The notes below the pieces were generated by a model that ran no database searches, was not told the origin of the DNA, and worked only from the letters and a program-made list of their open reading frames with translations. Below, in pieces: positions 14,965-21,324 of a DNA stretch of 38,179 bases (the first letter of the stretch is position 1; each line of letters starts with the position of its first letter). The position numbers were made by a program, and so were the translations under genes. This DNA comes from Candidatus Saccharimonadota bacterium (GTDB lineage Bacteria; Patescibacteriota; Saccharimonadia; Saccharimonadales; Saccharimonadaceae). The stretch spans positions 1-38,179 of the forward strand of contig JAFWMC010000002.1 in NCBI GenBank assembly GCA_017510805.1. The letters are read 5' to 3'.

Positions 14965-14993
14965 AAGAGATAACAGATAAAGTGGAGAAAATT

Positions 14994-15998
14994 ATGGAAA
15001 ATGAGAAGACCCCAGCCCCAACCTCAGAAAAATTTGATGTATTTCAGTGGGCTAATGAGATAGATGAGATTAAAAATAATGTCTCCGTGGAGCTATTTCT
15101 ATTTAATAAGAATTATACTCCTTATAAAGTCCGTTATTCTGATGCGCTTGCCAGCAACATTAAGGCGATGTTTATGGCTGAAGCCATCCAATATATTATT
15201 AAAGAGGCTGATAAGGGCTTGGTATGCGTTGACTACGAAAACCCTTCTGGCGAAGATAAGGAGATTTATCGTACTAAGCTTGAAAAGGTTGGGCGTGCTG
15301 AAACTTTGCTTCATTTGATTGAGCATGAATATAAAGATATTGATTATTTTACTGATAACGAGTATGAATTCAAAAAGGTAAAAGGTATTATTGCTAAATT
15401 TTCCTATCCAGGTGGAGATAGTGGCACCAAGACCTTTTATATTGCTAAAGGCATCCCTGCTTCCTCTGCCCTCAAGGGGGCTACTTCCTGGGAGCTAAAT
15501 GGTGAAAGCTTTGAACCTTTTGCTGCTGAAGTTGGCATCAAGATGCCAGATGATAATCAAGTTGCTATTATTGATGATACGATCATCGTATTTAATCAGT
15601 CCAAATTTGAAAATCTTTTCCAATACGATTATAAGACTGAGGCAATTGCTGCCGCCAAAGCTAAAGAGCTACAAGAAAAGTATAAACTATCTTTCTCCGA
15701 AGGTCTTACGCTCAATGATTTGCTCGTTGATAGAAAACCGCTCGTCAAAAAGCTTCAGGACCTTGACATCGCCGAGGAAATGTCTCAGGAAGATTTGATT
15801 GATTATGCCGACCAAGTCCAGCTAGAATTAATGACGGACGACGATGGCTCTATTATTATCATGGACGATAAAGATTTGACAATGTTTGTAAATCTCCTGA
15901 ACGAAGATTATTATGTTTCTCCCGTCAATGGGCGCCGTTATGAAATAAAATCTAAAAAACTCCTAAAAGACGCTGAAGGTGAGCCACCACGCGGTTAG
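14994..15998 (+). CDS. KwaB-like (DUF4868) protein, candidate anti-phage gene
   Basis: The ATG at 14994 has GGAG 6-7 nt upstream; an in-frame GTG at 14982 is less likely. The 334-residue protein resembles the DUF4868/KwaB family of the Kiwa defence system: an N-terminal alpha/beta half, a central FSYPGG ... FYIAKGIP segment, then VAIIDDTIIVFNQSKFENLFQY followed by a helical stretch, and the typical ending LLNEDYYVSPVNGRRYEIKSKK. Kiwa pairs KwaB with the membrane protein KwaA; no KwaA is present here. The gene is alone between long inverted repeats and its coding strand is C/T-richer than its neighbours, both signs of acquisition. The family assignment is by memory of the pattern and should be treated as probable. 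Confidence 0.6.
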   Translation: MENEKTPAPTSEKFDVFQWANEIDEIKNNVSVELFLFNKNYTPYKVRYSDALASNIKAMFMAEAIQYIIKEADKGLVCVDYENPSGEDKEIYRTKLEKVGRAETLLHLIEHEYKDIDYFTDNEYEFKKVKGIIAKFSYPGGDSGTKTFYIAKGIPASSALKGATSWELNGESFEPFAAEVGIKMPDDNQVAIIDDTIIVFNQSKFENLFQYDYKTEAIAAAKAKELQEKYKLSFSEGLTLNDLLVDRKPLVKKLQDLDIAEEMSQEDLIDYADQVQLELMTDDDGSIIIMDDKDLTMFVNLLNEDYYVSPVNGRRYEIKSKKLLKDAEGEPPRG

Positions 15999-16149: not shown

Positions 16150-16238
16150 GCGTTCAAGAGCTAAGAAAAAGTGAATATACTTAAATTATGATAGGAGGGG
16201 GTGTGGAAAAGGGAATTAGAAAGGCAATGAAAAAGGTC

Positions 16239-16267
16239 TTGCTTTTTGGAAAAGGCTTGTGTATAAT
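16239..16267 (+). promoter_or_regulatory. Promoter of the DGR target gene
   Basis: TTGCTT (16239-16244), 17-bp spacer, TATAAT (16262-16267). The -35 and flanking block GAAAAAGGTCTTGCTTTTT is repeated almost exactly at 20811-20829 upstream of rsmH. The leader is about 50 nt and ends with GGAGG 5-6 nt before the chosen ATG. Confidence 0.7.
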
Positions 16268-16321
16268 AGAGGAAGATAGGCAAAAAATGTCAGATGTTAA
16301 TATTTAATTATGGAGGTATTA

Positions 16322-18076
16322 ATGAGCGTTAAGTTCAATATAACCAGGGGTAGGGGGACGAAAAATAGCGGATTGTCGCTGAAAAAGAGTACGACGCACA
16401 AGGCGTATAATACATTTGCTTTGGGCGCTTTTGCTTTCTTGGCGGCGTATGTAGTGGCGAGCGTGATAGCGCCCGTCAAAAATTCCAGCGCCGAAACCCA
16501 GGAAGTCGCCGCCAAAGTCCTAAATACAGATACCCAGATTAGTATCACCCCAGGCCAAGAAAAGGTCACCCTAAACGTAGGCCAGCCAGACCCAACGGGC
16601 ACCTTCATTTCTGGCAACGATACTCTCACCGCCAAGTCCACCTCCGATAGCGGCTACCAACTATACGTTTCTATGGACAATAACCATACTAATGGTAATC
16701 GTCTATACCTCAACGGTGATGAATCCTCTGGTTATATTTCTGCTAATAATAATGGTAGCGGCACAGATATCGTCTACCCTACTACCGCTACTCTCGCTAA
16801 AAACACTTGGGGACTTACCTTCTCTGCGGAAGATAACAATAATCAAGTATACGGTGCAGCCCCACTAATGGGTAATGAATACCTACTAAAGACTAGAAGC
16901 ACTGCTACGCCCATAGAAGGTGATGCTGTGCCTGTGTGGTACGCAGTAAAGGTAGATACTAATATGGTAACTGGCACCTATTCTGGCAATATTCTCTATA
17001 CTATTATTGCCGAAGCCAGCAATGCAGATTTAGGCATCCCCAGTATCAATCCACAGGCAGGCGCATTAAATGATACCGTAAACATCAGTGTACCACTCCA
17101 ATCTACCTTGGAAAACAACCAAGTTTCAGACCTTGGCACTATCACCGCCAAGATTGGCAACGAATCCTGCAACATCACTAATACAACCCTAGGTGGCGCT
17201 ACAGTAAATCTCACCTGCACCGTCCCACAACTTACTGTAGGGAGTACTTACAATGTATCTGTCTATATCCAGAAATACGATAGCACCTATGTAGCAGAGA
17301 ATGCCTTTGAATATACTTCGCCAACACTAGCAAACATCACCACGATGCAGGAAATGACATCAGACATCTGTGCGGCTACAGATACGGGCACTAAAGTAAC
17401 ATTAAGAGACACCCGTGGTGGCGGTAACGCTGGCAGCCAGGTAGCTAACTACGGCGTAGTAAAAGCTGCTGACGGTAACTGTTGGATGACAGACAACCTC
17501 AACATCTACAACTACACCATTAGTGCCGAAACCTCAGACTTCACTTCTCCAGCAAACTACACCATTCCAGCTGGCATCACCGCCACCACTGATTGGAATA
17601 CAAATGATTATGCTACAAAGAAGGTAGAAGTATCCCACGGTCTAGGCCAATATGCCTCTCAAGATCAGCAATATTGGAATGAACCATACTACAACTGGAC
17701 AGTGGCAGTAGCTAAGGAGACTACGGCAGGAGTCACTACCGCTCCAGATACCTCCATCTGCCCCAAGGGCTGGACATTGCCTACTAATGGCGATAATGGC
17801 GTAAACAAATCCTGGGCAAAGCTCTTACATGTATATGGTATTGATACTGGTGCGAAGCTACTAGCAAACGGTACCTTAGGCTTTACTAAGTACTACGGCT
17901 ACTGGGGTTGGAACTACGCGTCCGAGTACACTCAGGGTAGCTACGGCTACTTCTGGTCTGGTACGCCTTCCGCTGAGACTAATGCGTACTTCCTGTACTA
18001 CTATTCCGGAGGCGTCTACCCGCAGAATAGCAACCATAAGGGCGTCGGCTTCAGTATTCGGTGCGTTGCTCGTTAG
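16322..18076 (+). CDS. DGR target protein: anchored surface protein with variable lectin-fold domain
   Basis: 584 residues from the ATG at 16322, chosen because GGAGG sits just before it; an ATG four codons upstream lacks an SD. A basic N-terminus and a hydrophobic segment (31-51) give a membrane anchor or signal peptide. Residues about 70-230 form a beta module with NTWG (161-164) ending in VTGTYSGNILYTII, shared with the protein at 36202. A second beta-sandwich domain follows (about 236-335). Residues 340-584 resemble the Fibrobacter-type major paralogous/C-type-lectin-like domain (MQEMTSDIC, TLRDTR, DGNCWMTDNL, CPKGWTLP). The last 66 residues are the VR: sites that are Asn in the template are mostly Tyr here, also Gly, Thr, Phe, Ser, His and Val. 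Codons are C-rich, unlike neighbouring genes. Confidence 0.9.
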   Translation: MSVKFNITRGRGTKNSGLSLKKSTTHKAYNTFALGAFAFLAAYVVASVIAPVKNSSAETQEVAAKVLNTDTQISITPGQEKVTLNVGQPDPTGTFISGNDTLTAKSTSDSGYQLYVSMDNNHTNGNRLYLNGDESSGYISANNNGSGTDIVYPTTATLAKNTWGLTFSAEDNNNQVYGAAPLMGNEYLLKTRSTATPIEGDAVPVWYAVKVDTNMVTGTYSGNILYTIIAEASNADLGIPSINPQAGALNDTVNISVPLQSTLENNQVSDLGTITAKIGNESCNITNTTLGGATVNLTCTVPQLTVGSTYNVSVYIQKYDSTYVAENAFEYTSPTLANITTMQEMTSDICAATDTGTKVTLRDTRGGGNAGSQVANYGVVKAADGNCWMTDNLNIYNYTISAETSDFTSPANYTIPAGITATTDWNTNDYATKKVEVSHGLGQYASQDQQYWNEPYYNWTVAVAKETTAGVTTAPDTSICPKGWTLPTNGDNGVNKSWAKLLHVYGIDTGAKLLANGTLGFTKYYGYWGWNYASEYTQGSYGYFWSGTPSAETNAYFLYYYSGGVYPQNSNHKGVGFSIRCVAR

Positions 18077-18115
18077 ATAGCATTCCTTCTTCCAGCTTTC
18101 CCCTTGGTTTTCCAC
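17871..18115 (+). repeat. DGR variable region (VR)
   Basis: 245 bp that align without gaps to the minus-strand TR at 20238-20482. Of 20 mismatches, 19 are at template adenines (17900, 17906, 17907, 17915, 17927, 17931, 17942, 17948, 17990, 17991, 17996, 18002, 18017, 18030, 18035, 18044, 18045, 18070, 18107); A to T dominates. The one non-A change is T to C at 18007 (silent). The VR covers the last codons and stop (18074-18076) and continues 39 bp into the 3' UTR. The unchanged stretch 18046-18069 is the likely initiation-of-mutagenic-homing core. Confidence 0.95.
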
Positions 18116-18140
18116 GATTGAAAAAACCGCAGGGGAGAGC
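18095..18140 (+). other. Hairpin at the 3' edge of the VR
   Basis: Two stacked stems: outer GCTTTCCCCT with AGGGGAGAGC (18095-18104 and 18131-18140, one mismatch) and inner GGTTTT with AAAACC around an 11-nt loop. The hairpin straddles the end of VR/TR homology (18115), where DGRs often carry a target-recognition hairpin or cruciform. It may also terminate the target mRNA, although there is no T-run. Confidence 0.6.
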
Positions 18141-18197
18141 GCCGGAAGGTGAAGTCGGATAAGAAAAAGATAAAATGATGGAGGTAGCTAGAAAAAA

Positions 18198-19115
18198 ATG
18201 CCGGTAGAGAAAGCCGAGAGGCGGACCGAGGAAAGAGTCAAGGCGGAACGAGCAAAGCAAGAAAAAGCTGCACAAAAGAAAAAGCTTGATCGGGACGCTA
18301 AATCTGCCGCAGGGCGTGAAAGCCAGTATCGCTACAGAAAACGTAAGAAAGCTGTGGCGGAAAAGGAGGAGAAAAACTATCGTTATCTTTATATCTTTCA
18401 ATCCAATGAAAAAGCTTGGTGGAAGATGGGCTGGCACAGTGTGCTATTTTTTCGTTATATTGTAGCAAGAAGAATTCAGCACGAAGCCAATGTTAACAAT
18501 GACCATGATTTTGGTTTGAAATCACCGACAGGGATAATATCATTGAGAGATGAAGGATTGCCGAGTTTGATTTCACAAATGTACGAACTGGGGTACAGAG
18601 TGGACAGGCGGAGATCTTCAGAAACGGTGAAGGTAGTGGATCTAGGCTACAAAATTAGTGCTGAAGATGTGAAGAGATATGAACATGAGGAAGAAGCAAA
18701 GCTAGAGAGGCTAAATAAATTAGCGCCGGTGGTGATAAATATCCCAGAAGTTGATGGGAAGTTGAGAGAGATAACTAAAAGAATATATAATGCAGTGAAT
18801 CGGATGCCAGAGCCAGGCCGGAAAATGATGGGATATGGGATAGCTGAGCTGGCAATTTCTGCTATGAAAACGTATCAATATATGACATGGGGAGGAATAA
18901 CGCCAGAGGAAGCATTAAAAAGAATAAAGAAAGCGCTGATGGCGCTAAAAGTGCAGGTGAATGTGGCAACGAGAATAGACATCTTGGACAGAGATGTGGC
19001 GACAAAACTGGGGGTGGACATAGTTGAGGCGGAAAGATTGGTGAAACCGTGGCTGGGAGAGAAAACTGATGATGTGGCAGGAGATGTGATACGCAAAAAT
19101 GAGGGACTTAAGTAA
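18198..19115 (+). CDS. avd: Avd-like DGR accessory protein with long N-terminal extension
   Basis: Avd partners the DGR reverse transcriptase in mutagenic cDNA synthesis. The 305-residue protein is more than twice the usual Avd length (about 120-130). Residues 1-60 are a charged Lys/Glu/Arg coiled segment. Residues 61-160 (YRYLYIFQ ... LPSLISQMYELGYRVD) form an unassigned alpha/beta region with faint resemblance to MutS domain I. Residues about 185-290 are a four-helix Avd-type bundle: ITKRIYNAVNRMPEPGRKMMG, then paired helices ending in LVKPWL. A GGAGGT lies 11-12 nt upstream of the ATG. It overlaps the RT gene by 17 nt, so the two are coupled. The C-terminal call is good; the N-terminal one is uncertain. 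Confidence 0.7.
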   Translation: MPVEKAERRTEERVKAERAKQEKAAQKKKLDRDAKSAAGRESQYRYRKRKKAVAEKEEKNYRYLYIFQSNEKAWWKMGWHSVLFFRYIVARRIQHEANVNNDHDFGLKSPTGIISLRDEGLPSLISQMYELGYRVDRRRSSETVKVVDLGYKISAEDVKRYEHEEEAKLERLNKLAPVVINIPEVDGKLREITKRIYNAVNRMPEPGRKMMGYGIAELAISAMKTYQYMTWGGITPEEALKRIKKALMALKVQVNVATRIDILDRDVATKLGVDIVEAERLVKPWLGEKTDDVAGDVIRKNEGLK

Positions 19116-20229
19116 AGTCGCAGAAATGCCGCGTGGGCAGTTTGCTGATTGGCTACTAAAGGAATTGTGGCGAGCATATTATGATGCTAGAAAAGGTAAG
19201 AGGACGACGGTGGATGAACATATGTTTGAAATAAATGCAGCAGAAAACATATTGAATTTAAGAGATGTGATAATGTCGGGATATTATAGGCCAGGGCGAG
19301 GAATTGCCTTTATTGTATGGCGGCCAGTGACAAGAGAGATATTTGCTGCACCATTTAAAGATAGAGTAGTGCACCATTTTTTATATAATATGGTGGCGGA
19401 ATGGTGGGACAAAAGGCTAATTTATGATGCTTATTCTTGCCGGAAGGAAAAAGGCGTACTATTTGGAGTGCAGCGAATACAGCACCATATTAATAGCGTG
19501 TCGCAAAACTACGAGAAAAAGGCCTATGTGATAAAACTAGATATACAGGGATATTTTATGAGTTTGCCACGAGAGGGGCTGATGGAGAGGGTAGAATGGG
19601 GGCTGAAGCGACAATTTCCAGAAAGAGGACAGTTATACCAGACCTTAATGGAGTTATGGGCGGCGGTGATTTTTGATGACCCTTGTAAAGGGGTGATACG
19701 AAAAGGGTCGCTGGCAGATTGGGACTGTTTGCCGCGGAATAAGAGCCTGTTTTGTCAGCCACCAGGGCAGGGAATTGTGATTGGCAATCTTTCCTCGCAA
19801 TTATTATCAAATATCTATTTGGATCCGATGGATAGATTCATTATGCATGATTTGGGCTATAAACATTATGGGCGGTATGTGGATGATTTTTATATTATAG
19901 TGCCAGAGGAAAAATTAGAGCAGGTAAAACAAGATATTATGTTGATTAGAGATTATTTAGCAATGAGAAAATTGACTTTACATCCGAAAAAGGTACAGGT
20001 GATAGAGGTGCATCAAGGAGTGGAATGGCTGGGAGCGATGGTATGGAAGTGGGGGTTGTGTCCGGGAAGGAGGATGGAGCAGTTTTTTAGGGAAGCGGCA
20101 GAGCTGTATTTGGTAGATGACGGCGACGTAACATCAATAGCGTCATATCTGGGGCATATGAAGCATTTAAGAAGTAAGAAAGTGGAGAAGAAAATCTTTG
20201 ACAGAATGGGGTGGGAATATAGATTTTAG
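19099..20229 (+). CDS. DGR reverse transcriptase
   Basis: The 376-residue single-domain RT copies the TR RNA with adenine-specific errors. Motifs visible: RT1/2 region APFKDRVVHHFL (84-95), motif 3 IKLDIQGYFMS with catalytic D148, motif 4 CQPPGQGIVIGNLSSQLLSNIYL in which QG-x3-GN-x2-SQ (224-234) is the hallmark that separates DGR RTs from group II intron and retron RTs, the catalytic YVDD (260-263), and a thumb region to the end. No endonuclease or maturase domain. It starts within the Avd-like gene and ends 8 bp before the convergent TR. Confidence 0.95.
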   Translation: MRDLSKVAEMPRGQFADWLLKELWRAYYDARKGKRTTVDEHMFEINAAENILNLRDVIMSGYYRPGRGIAFIVWRPVTREIFAAPFKDRVVHHFLYNMVAEWWDKRLIYDAYSCRKEKGVLFGVQRIQHHINSVSQNYEKKAYVIKLDIQGYFMSLPREGLMERVEWGLKRQFPERGQLYQTLMELWAAVIFDDPCKGVIRKGSLADWDCLPRNKSLFCQPPGQGIVIGNLSSQLLSNIYLDPMDRFIMHDLGYKHYGRYVDDFYIIVPEEKLEQVKQDIMLIRDYLAMRKLTLHPKKVQVIEVHQGVEWLGAMVWKWGLCPGRRMEQFFREAAELYLVDDGDVTSIASYLGHMKHLRSKKVEKKIFDRMGWEYRF

Positions 20230-20237
20230 GGGGCGTA

Positions 20238-20482
20238 GTGGAAAATCAAGGGGAAAGCTGGAAGAAGGAATGCTATCTAACGTGCAACGCACCGAATACT
20301 GAAGCCGTTGCCCTTATTGTTGTTATTCTGCGGGTTGACGCCTCCAGAATTGTAGTTCAGGTTGTACGCATTAGTCTCAGCGGAAGGCGTACCAGACCAG
20401 AAGTTGCCGTTGCTACCCTGATTGTTCTCGGACGCGTTGTTCCAATTCCAGTTGCCGTAGTACTTAGTAAAGCCTAAGGTAC
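20238..20482 (-). repeat. DGR template repeat (TR)
   Basis: Minus-strand copy of the VR, located 8 bp after the RT stop codon and opposite in orientation to the RT and target genes. Read in sense it encodes the same C-terminus with Asn at variable sites (GNWNW, ENNQGSNGN, NPQNNNNKGNG), that is AAC/AAT codons that maximise the effect of adenine mutagenesis. It also includes the stop codon and 39 bp of downstream sequence. Confidence 0.95.
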
Positions 20483-20667
20483 TGAGCATGAGAAGTAGCT
20501 TATTAATCTAGCAAGGGCGTACCACTGATAGATATTTTGGTATAGACCTCGGTTTTTATTCGCCAAGGGTACTTCCGTTTTTCCACGATTATAGCCGGTG
20601 AAAGGGCAGGTAAAACACATATAGGAATATGTAGCCTGGCCTCTGAGCGGCGTACCCCCTTATGCTT
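20483..20667 (-). promoter_or_regulatory. Leader of the TR RNA
   Basis: About 180 nt between the predicted TR transcription start and the TR. It contains no ORF of note. It shares the 12-mer TTTTCCACGATT (20579-20590) with the VR 3' hairpin (18108-18119). The leader may bind Avd/RT or prime cDNA synthesis, by analogy with other DGRs in which sequences flanking the TR are required. Confidence 0.4.
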
Positions 20668-20695
20668 ATTATAGCACCAAGATGGGGAATTGCAA
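20668..20695 (-). promoter_or_regulatory. Promoter of the TR RNA
   Basis: On the minus strand TTGCAA (20690-20695), 16-bp spacer, TATAAT (20668-20673). It drives transcription toward the TR and convergently into the 3' end of the RT gene. The only promoter-like sequence found that would produce the adenine-rich sense of the TR. Confidence 0.7.
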
Positions 20696-20754: not shown

Positions 20755-20849
20755 TGTGGAAATGTGTGGAAAAGTTAAAACCTGTGGAAAACTTTTATGC
20801 AAAAAAGTGCGAAAAAGGTCTTGCTTTTTTGGAAAAATTAATATAAACT
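20755..20849 (+). promoter_or_regulatory. Promoter region upstream of rsmH, with GTGGAAA repeats
   Basis: TTGCTT (20821-20826), 17-bp spacer, TAAACT (20844-20849). The block matches the DGR target promoter. Just upstream are three GTGGAAA repeats (20756, 20766, 20784). It is divergent from the TR promoter. It probably drives the structured leader described next. Confidence 0.5.
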
Positions 20850-21300
20850 AAGGTCAGTGGACAACAAAAGACCACAAACAAATACAACAAACAAAACAAA
20901 TGGCAAGAATAAAAACAGAATCAGAGCAGGTGAACTACGAAATAGTGCGTATGACAAAAATTCGGTAGTTGTAACCTACGTACCTTTAAATAGTTTGAGA
21001 TTGGCCAACTAGGAGTTTTGGCGCGCGTTTAGGACACGCGACACCAAAACCGCAGGTACTTCTAATAGAAACACCTCCCAATTAACTCTAAACAACCTTT
21101 ACACAATAAACTCTCAACTGTCACAATTATGACACCGGCCTAGCGCTAGTGAATTGCGACAAAAAAGGTTTTACCGTTATCCTTTGTGTAAGGCCAAACA
21201 AAAATCGAACAAAAACAAAAACGCTAAAGTTTCTAGTTGGGCGATCTCAAACGAAGTGATATTAAGGCATAAGTAGCAGACTGCTTTAGGGGCAGGAAGC
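20850..21300 (+). other. Structured leader region with a 22-codon ORF, upstream of rsmH
   Basis: Gene-free except for a tiny ORF at 20900-20968 (begins MARIKTESEQ, no SD, A-rich lead-in). Helices seen: GTACCT 20980-20985 with AGGTAC 21054-21059 enclosing GTTTTGG 21015-21021 / CCAAAAC 21044-21050 and CGCGT / ACGCG inside it, then CCTTTACACAA 21096-21106 with TTTGTGTAAGG 21184-21194. The nested helices suggest a stable RNA or regulatory leader; no known family was recognised. Confidence 0.4.
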
Positions 21301-21309
21301 TAGCAAGTA

Positions 21310-21318
21310 TGTTATAAT
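21310..21318 (+). promoter_or_regulatory. Extended -10 of rsmH (leaderless type)
   Basis: TGTTATAAT ends 6 nt before the rsmH ATG at 21325. No SD. Confidence 0.6.
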
Positions 21319-21324
21319 ATCAAT

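Follow-up and report, generated by a model that had tools for sequence, protein, structure and literature searches.

This study revealed that the window analysed here, a stretch of 38,179 nt from contig JAFWMC010000002.1 of a Candidatus Saccharimonadota bacterium, carries a complete and genuine diversity-generating retroelement (DGR) of a Saccharibacteria genus. All coordinates refer to this window. Taken as a whole, the best explanation, which we consider probable, is a chromosomal DGR of a gut Saccharibacterium, which introduces diversity into a surface protein at its C-type-lectin-like end and works through a rearranged template RNA with a primer or guide element before the template. As part of the same explanation, its single template repeat (TR) is probably, or was in the past, also the template of at least eight remote variable repeats (VRs). 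Two of these points go beyond an earlier sequence-only reading of the locus: the rearranged TR RNA with a 5' element matching the VR end, and the remote VRs.

The cassette is defined by the following pair of repeats:
17871-18115, plus strand: VR, recognised by its adenine-specific mismatches to the TR
20238-20482, minus strand (the A-strand): TR, antiparallel to the reverse transcriptase (RT) and target genes, found by repeat search and alignment

The two repeats align over 245 bp without gaps and with 20 mismatches, 19 of which fall on TR adenines (hypergeometric p = 2e-11). The coordinates and the adenine bias given in the sequence-only reading proved exact, both on realignment and with an independent repeat finder that returned identical arms. 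The changes at TR adenines comprise 12 A>T, 5 A>G and 2 A>C, and the sole mismatch at another base is a silent T>C. The A-site change at 18070 is silent too, and the one at 18107 (TR A237) falls within the element at the repeat end called initiation of mutagenic homing (IMH in the VR, IMH* in the TR), where an origin by mutagenesis is not required. Codon comparison confirmed that asparagine codons of the TR become Tyr, Gly, Thr, Phe, Ser, His and Val in the VR. The adenine-specific signature demands that transcription of the TR proceed from the strand opposite rt.

With regard to the genus as a whole, RT relatives were found in 97 of 174 genomes, with at most four matches per genome. The layout was counted at the 76 loci where a TR/VR pair was detectable and the RT identity exceeded 40%. 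In 72 of them the TR is antiparallel to and downstream of the RT, nearly always within 400 nt; the antiparallel TR lies upstream of the RT in L033 and L063, and the TR is on the RT strand in L046 and L120. When all 80 loci with a TR/VR pair are pooled, TR adenines account for 1732 of the 1851 mismatches. A disrupted RT or TR in close strains had been named beforehand as a refutation, which fails: most RT loci of the genus turned out to be open and to have A-specific TR/VR pairs, with split or fragmentary RTs at a few. The canonical layout, with the TR upstream of the RT and on the same strand, is found for farther RTs of the same genus and order (L053, L065-L067), at 68 of 68 viral BPP-1-like loci and at 50 of 57 sampled loci of the candidate phyla radiation (CPR) outside the genus. 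The window cassette does not show the BPP-1-type arrangement of a TR upstream on the RT strand with a spacer of about 140 nt, its TR being antiparallel and downstream. Given that this TR ends 9 nt from the RT stop codon, a BPP-1-like spacer would be antisense to rt; the usual 3' spacer is missing because the TR lies antiparallel directly downstream of the RT. Two further observations concern layout. The CPR DGRs of canonical orientation (L249-L308) usually have their TR about 350-540 nt before the RT, far more than in phage DGRs, and L062 has a VR on either side of its single TR within the locus, the two VRs being on opposite strands.

The modelled RNA of the window runs along the minus strand from about 20661 to at least 20228. 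The elements predicted for it, and those at the VR end, are:
20668-20695, minus strand: promoter-like site for the TR RNA (TTGCAA, 16 nt, TATAAT, extended -10), from a consensus scan
20483-20661, minus strand: 5' leader of the TR RNA, placed by the promoter position, with a predicted start at about 20661
20654-20660, minus strand: 5' strand of the closing helix P1 (AGGGGGT), from the minimum-free-energy fold
20577-20590, minus strand: leader element AATCGTGGAAAAAC, the proposed primer or guide, complementary to the VR end and flank at 13 of 14 positions and to the TR end over 8 nt (helix P2)
20238-20247, minus strand: TR 3' end (IMH*), pairing with the leader element in P2, from complementarity and the minimum-free-energy fold
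20228-20234, minus strand: 3' strand of P1, overlapping the RT stop codon in antisense, from the minimum-free-energy fold and leader/flank complementarity
18106-18119, plus strand: IMH-like target element, the last 10 nt of the VR and 4 nt of flank, with a 12-nt exact complement, AATCGTGGAAAA, to the leader element
18095-18140, plus strand: hairpin at the VR 3' end and flank (fold z -4.6)

A predicted leader of about 170 nt thus precedes the TR, with P1 beginning at the predicted 5' end, and P1 and P2 are both present in the minimum-free-energy fold. TATAAT occurs in 25 of 70 leaders, against 7.2 expected. Little besides such promoter-like words is conserved as a motif among the leaders, and Rfam gave no match in the window, nor near the TR at a loose threshold. 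In one group of loci (L044, L110, L139, L141 and L148), the leaders have a nearly invariant GGAAAGGCAAAGAA around the proposed primer element; their P1 strands vary yet stay complementary (GTAGACCGC/GCGGTCTAC, GTAGGCCGC/GCGGCCTAC and GCGGTAATCG/CGATTACCGC).

The evidence for the leader element comes from a comparison of each leader with the 3' ends of its own TR and VR and then with those of other loci. The excess of six-mers complementary to the TR was limited to its last 10 nt and the first 20 nt beyond. Complementarity was flat for the TR interior and past +20, as were direct matches to the TR region (666 vs 641). For the VR the excess was larger and sharper, with 180 complementary six-mers at positions -10 to 0 against 46.9 expected, and the leader bin near -110 gave 56 matches against 4.0 expected. 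The element measures 8-15 nt and often extends into flanking VR sequence with no counterpart in the TR; the complements are AATCGTGGAAAA in the window, CAAAAAAGGAGATGG in L043 and CAAAGCAGGAACG in L050. Related loci of one group share the leader element GGAAAGGC, which complements GCCTTTCC of the VR, where the TR has GACTTTCC. A blind test, in which the anchor was set on TR/VR-identical positions only and the differing positions were then scored, found that the leader base fits the VR in 31 cases, the TR in 3 and neither in 3, compared with means of 5.7, 5.9 and 10.6 for shuffled pairings. With marginally different settings, a previous run had counted 30, 2 and 5, respectively.

Self-overlap of leader and VR flank does account for the excess of direct leader/VR matches. 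As a cause of the complementarity it was ruled out by 40 loci whose VR lies beyond the RT: z was 11.6 for the VR end, 6.7 for the TR end, 6.9 for the TR 3' flank, to which the RNA 5' end is complementary, and 0.8 for the VR flank at +7 to +40, and the blind test favoured the VR over the TR by 21:2. Across 71 loci, non-adenine differences between VR and TR amount to 8.5% over the final 10 nt (IMH versus IMH*) and fall to about 1% over the 40 nt adjoining them, and the VR-end hairpin has z below -2 in 45%, against 4% in the VR interior. Pairing between VR end and flank was rejected as a general same-locus rule, as its mean duplex energy equals the cross-locus mean.

The same search was applied to BPP-1. 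On the 3' side of its TR, the top match is spacer segment Sp 48-56, AGGTGGTCA, an exact complement of the VR IMH TGACCACCT, where the TR has TGCCCATCA. This segment ends at spacer A56, which we take to be the priming nucleotide. A match of equal length, AATCAGGTG, is found 5' of the TR in avd, and a single case is thus not unique by length. Across 15 non-redundant viral loci, the 3' side gave z 3.5 against the VR and -0.3 against the TR, and the 5' side z 1.9 against the VR. Because the same rule lands on Sp 48-56, the most fitting reading of the leader element in Saccharibacteria is that it corresponds functionally to the BPP-1 spacer segment and has been relocated. It has been reported that BPP-1 cDNA is primed by an internal spacer adenine (PMC12875486) and that BPP-1 needs a hairpin adjoining the IMH (PMC3240598), a requirement that the VR-end hairpin of the window fits. 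Both papers describe the IMH as a directionality element and name no pairing partner.

We propose that the leader element would be the counterpart of the spacer segment ending at A56, shifted from the 3' to the 5' side of the template. It would pair imperfectly with the TR 3' end and prime or position cDNA synthesis by the RT and the protein with the Avd domain. The cDNA would start at the edge of P2, the TR would be copied with errors at adenines, and the chimeric strand would match the bottom strand of the VR across the IMH. Since the leader element fully matches the VR and not the TR, the mutagenised cDNA would go to the VR and not back to the TR. Furthermore, as no 3' spacer would be needed, the TR unit could sit backwards behind the RT and be moved. 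For the window, we infer priming, protein binding and integration. We also find it rather likely that the TR RNA is circularly permuted in this genus, with the primer or guide 5' of the template and a terminal helix closing the RNA, and that, generally, the RNA primer has its full DNA complement in the IMH, with IMH* as a mismatched copy.

We also identified matches to the TR far from the cassette. There are 12 of these in the genome, and at least 8 are near-complete, A-specifically diversified remote VRs; TR-like stretches (L150-L160) lie on contigs C17, C42, C5, C49, C58, C29, C23, C2, C65, C33 and C60 of G000. Relative to the TR, each of the eight remote VRs carries 16-24 differences at A sites and 1-9 elsewhere. 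Compared with one another and with the cassette VR, they differ at 15-29 of 56 TR-adenine sites vs 2-15 of 136 other sites. The proteins in which they lie, at the C-terminus, are relatives of the cassette target; the match to the TR stops near the stop codon, the 3' 45 nt of the TR being absent. The sequence-only reading had called the signature active-looking, and recent activity is supported inside this same genome by these eight VRs, which have diversified apart from each other. Such independently diversified copies also provide indirect support for mutagenic retrohoming. Remote VRs were rejected as a genus-wide trait, none being found for two cassettes tested in relatives.

Several observations weigh against the proposed role of the leader element. 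A scorable match in the blind test was obtained in only 31 of 53 non-redundant loci, and the window leader base opposite TR A237 fits neither the TR nor the VR. In other Patescibacteria the match of the leader, 5' of the TR, to the VR end drops to z 3.6 and the blind test fails to reach significance, for which reasons the rule is not claimed phylum-wide. The remote VRs have no complement to the leader. Moreover, the priming role is drawn from the BPP-1 analogy, and the element could be a target guide only. It would then pair with the VR coding strand to pick the target, and the cDNA would be primed otherwise, for example from a target nick or the RNA 3' end. That the match is better to the VR than to the TR and continues into the VR flank would suit such a guide. 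Nevertheless, we consider this unlikely, given that the matching segment of BPP-1 ends exactly at the presumed priming nucleotide and that pairing of the leader with the TR end likewise exceeds chance, as expected of a primer (z 6.7). Less probable still is an ordinary DGR RNA in which the TR is merely flipped and the 3' spacer that binds RT-Avd and primes the cDNA is antisense within the 3' end of rt. BPP-1 does require a 3' spacer (PMC12875486), and P1 shows that the first 20-30 nt past the TR matter. However, the blind test on sequence downstream of the TR gave 4:3 and thus no VR-matching element; intrinsic-terminator-like hairpins directly follow the TR, before the RT, in 17 of 71 loci (a raw count with no background rate); and a VR-matching leader accompanies the TR both in L127, where it lies 1.6 kb from the RT, and in L063, where it is upstream. 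A non-functional relic or an assembly artefact might be suspected in a metagenome-style draft assembly, but we regard either as extremely improbable: the open reading frames (ORFs) are intact, the identical layout recurs at 72 loci of many genomes, and the divergence is restricted to adenines, with silent sites nearly unchanged.

The remote VRs call for a separate assessment, because they lack both the TR 3' 45 nt and the leader match and the leader rule does not explain them. They may have been diversified by another TR, lost or unassembled, or by recombination with the cassette VR rather than in trans. The missing 3' segment and leader match speak for this, as does a genome that is 83.5% complete and in 65 contigs. 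On the other hand, their non-adenine positions are nearly those of the cassette TR (1-9 differences in 136), at A sites they depart both from the cassette VR and from one another, and neither a second TR nor a second RT was found in the host genome assembly. We take this possibility seriously, although we lean against it and towards service by the cassette TR.

The protein-coding part of the cassette comprises the following features:
16239-16267, plus strand: promoter-like site of the target gene (TTGCTT, 17 nt, TATAAT), read from the sequence
16310-18076, plus strand: target gene, an ORF of 588 aa with an N-terminal membrane/signal stretch and a C-terminal FISUMP (C-type-lectin-like) domain
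18198-19115, plus strand: accessory protein of 305 aa, with a helix and an alpha/beta part at the N-terminus joined to an Avd four-helix bundle at the C-terminus
19099-20229, plus strand: DGR reverse transcriptase of 376 aa, identified by motifs, sequence and predicted fold

The FISUMP assignment (Fib_succ_major / TIGR02145) is slightly under the curated cut-offs, but consistent in Pfam and NCBIfam. The promoter-like site of the target was missed by a stricter consensus scan. With regard to the accessory protein, no Pfam or NCBIfam family fits and no match to Avd was found at the sequence level. Its AlphaFold model (pLDDT 93) has a long helix and an alpha/beta part before the four-helix bundle, and Foldseek matches this bundle to BPP-1 Avd (8ub7_E, 4dwl; TMt about 0.8). 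MutS domain I in the N-terminal part, seen in 1 of 30 members only (E 0.04), is not claimed. The RT contains the motifs QGIVIGNLSSQ and YVDD, as reported earlier; its best PDB sequence match is the BPP-1 DGR RT (8ub7_A, 5.5e-27), which also provides the top PDB matches to its predicted fold (pLDDT 91). The earlier statement that all parts are intact thus holds for the target, accessory and RT ORFs, which are open, and the description of the accessory protein as Avd-like applies to its C-terminal half only.

The surroundings of the cassette show some further features. It is bracketed by a 25-bp direct repeat, 92% identical, at 16229-16253 and 20811-20835; an 18-mer common to both copies, considered but not adopted as an element end, has no other exact occurrence in the genome, and the left copy shares bases with the -35 of the target promoter. 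A KwaB-like protein (14982-15995) adjoins the DGR, with a Pfam match of 3e-9 and an NCBIfam KwaB score far under the cut-off. On the other side, an intergenic region of about 480 bp (20840-21320) separates the DGR from cell-division genes and holds a 31-nt inverted repeat with arms 198 nt apart (20993-21023 and 21222-21252); the region, which has no Rfam match, may be an unannotated structured RNA.

How cDNA enters the target has been called incompletely understood (PMC12875486). The question becomes a testable statement through a base-pairing rule that emerged blind from about 30 diverged loci and also hits the BPP-1 priming site. If true, one rule would explain why information flows from TR to VR without return, DGR target sites would be predictable from the RNA, and the existence of a permuted RNA would mean that the DGR ribonucleoprotein can cope with RNA parts in a different order. 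For the remote VRs the question is reversed, namely how sites without a matching element get served. All of the evidence is comparative. We did not find this arrangement described in the literature searched, which excluded key BPP-1 RNA and survey papers, and the novelty of the general pairing rule is uncertain, as part of it may be already known for BPP-1.

Among known systems, the BPP-1 DGR (mtd, avd, TR, brt) has in common with the window cassette the RT fold, the Avd bundle, an A-specific TR/VR pair, the VR-end hairpin, the IMH/IMH* difference and an RNA element complementary to the IMH and mismatched to IMH*. In BPP-1, however, the TR is on the RT strand and the element lies about 50 nt 3' of it, whereas in the window the TR is antiparallel, the element lies about 105 nt 5', and the accessory protein has an N-terminal part additional to Avd. 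Inversion of TR and RT has been described before, as rare, with TR, VR and target all opposite the RT (PMC3521204; PMC6642488). The inverted DGRs of DiGReF group 4 (Shewanella, Vibrio and Photobacterium; three cases known; PMC3521204) resemble the window in having the TR opposite the RT, together with VR and target. In contrast, it is usually the TR alone that is flipped in the Saccharibacteria genus, as a rule for the whole genus, and in the window target and RT share a strand. Cassette group G5 likewise has an RT inverted relative to the canonical cassette, and the available portion of its description gives no CPR members and no RNA anatomy (PMC6642488). The CPR DGRs of RT clade 2 of Roux 2021 (PMC8144416) are cellular and common in the phylum, a likeness drawn by host group and not by RT tree. 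Finally, the multi-target DGRs of Pseudogulbenkiania (PMC3521204) have VRs outside the cassette on either strand, as found here, with no fewer than eight near-complete remote VRs for one TR.

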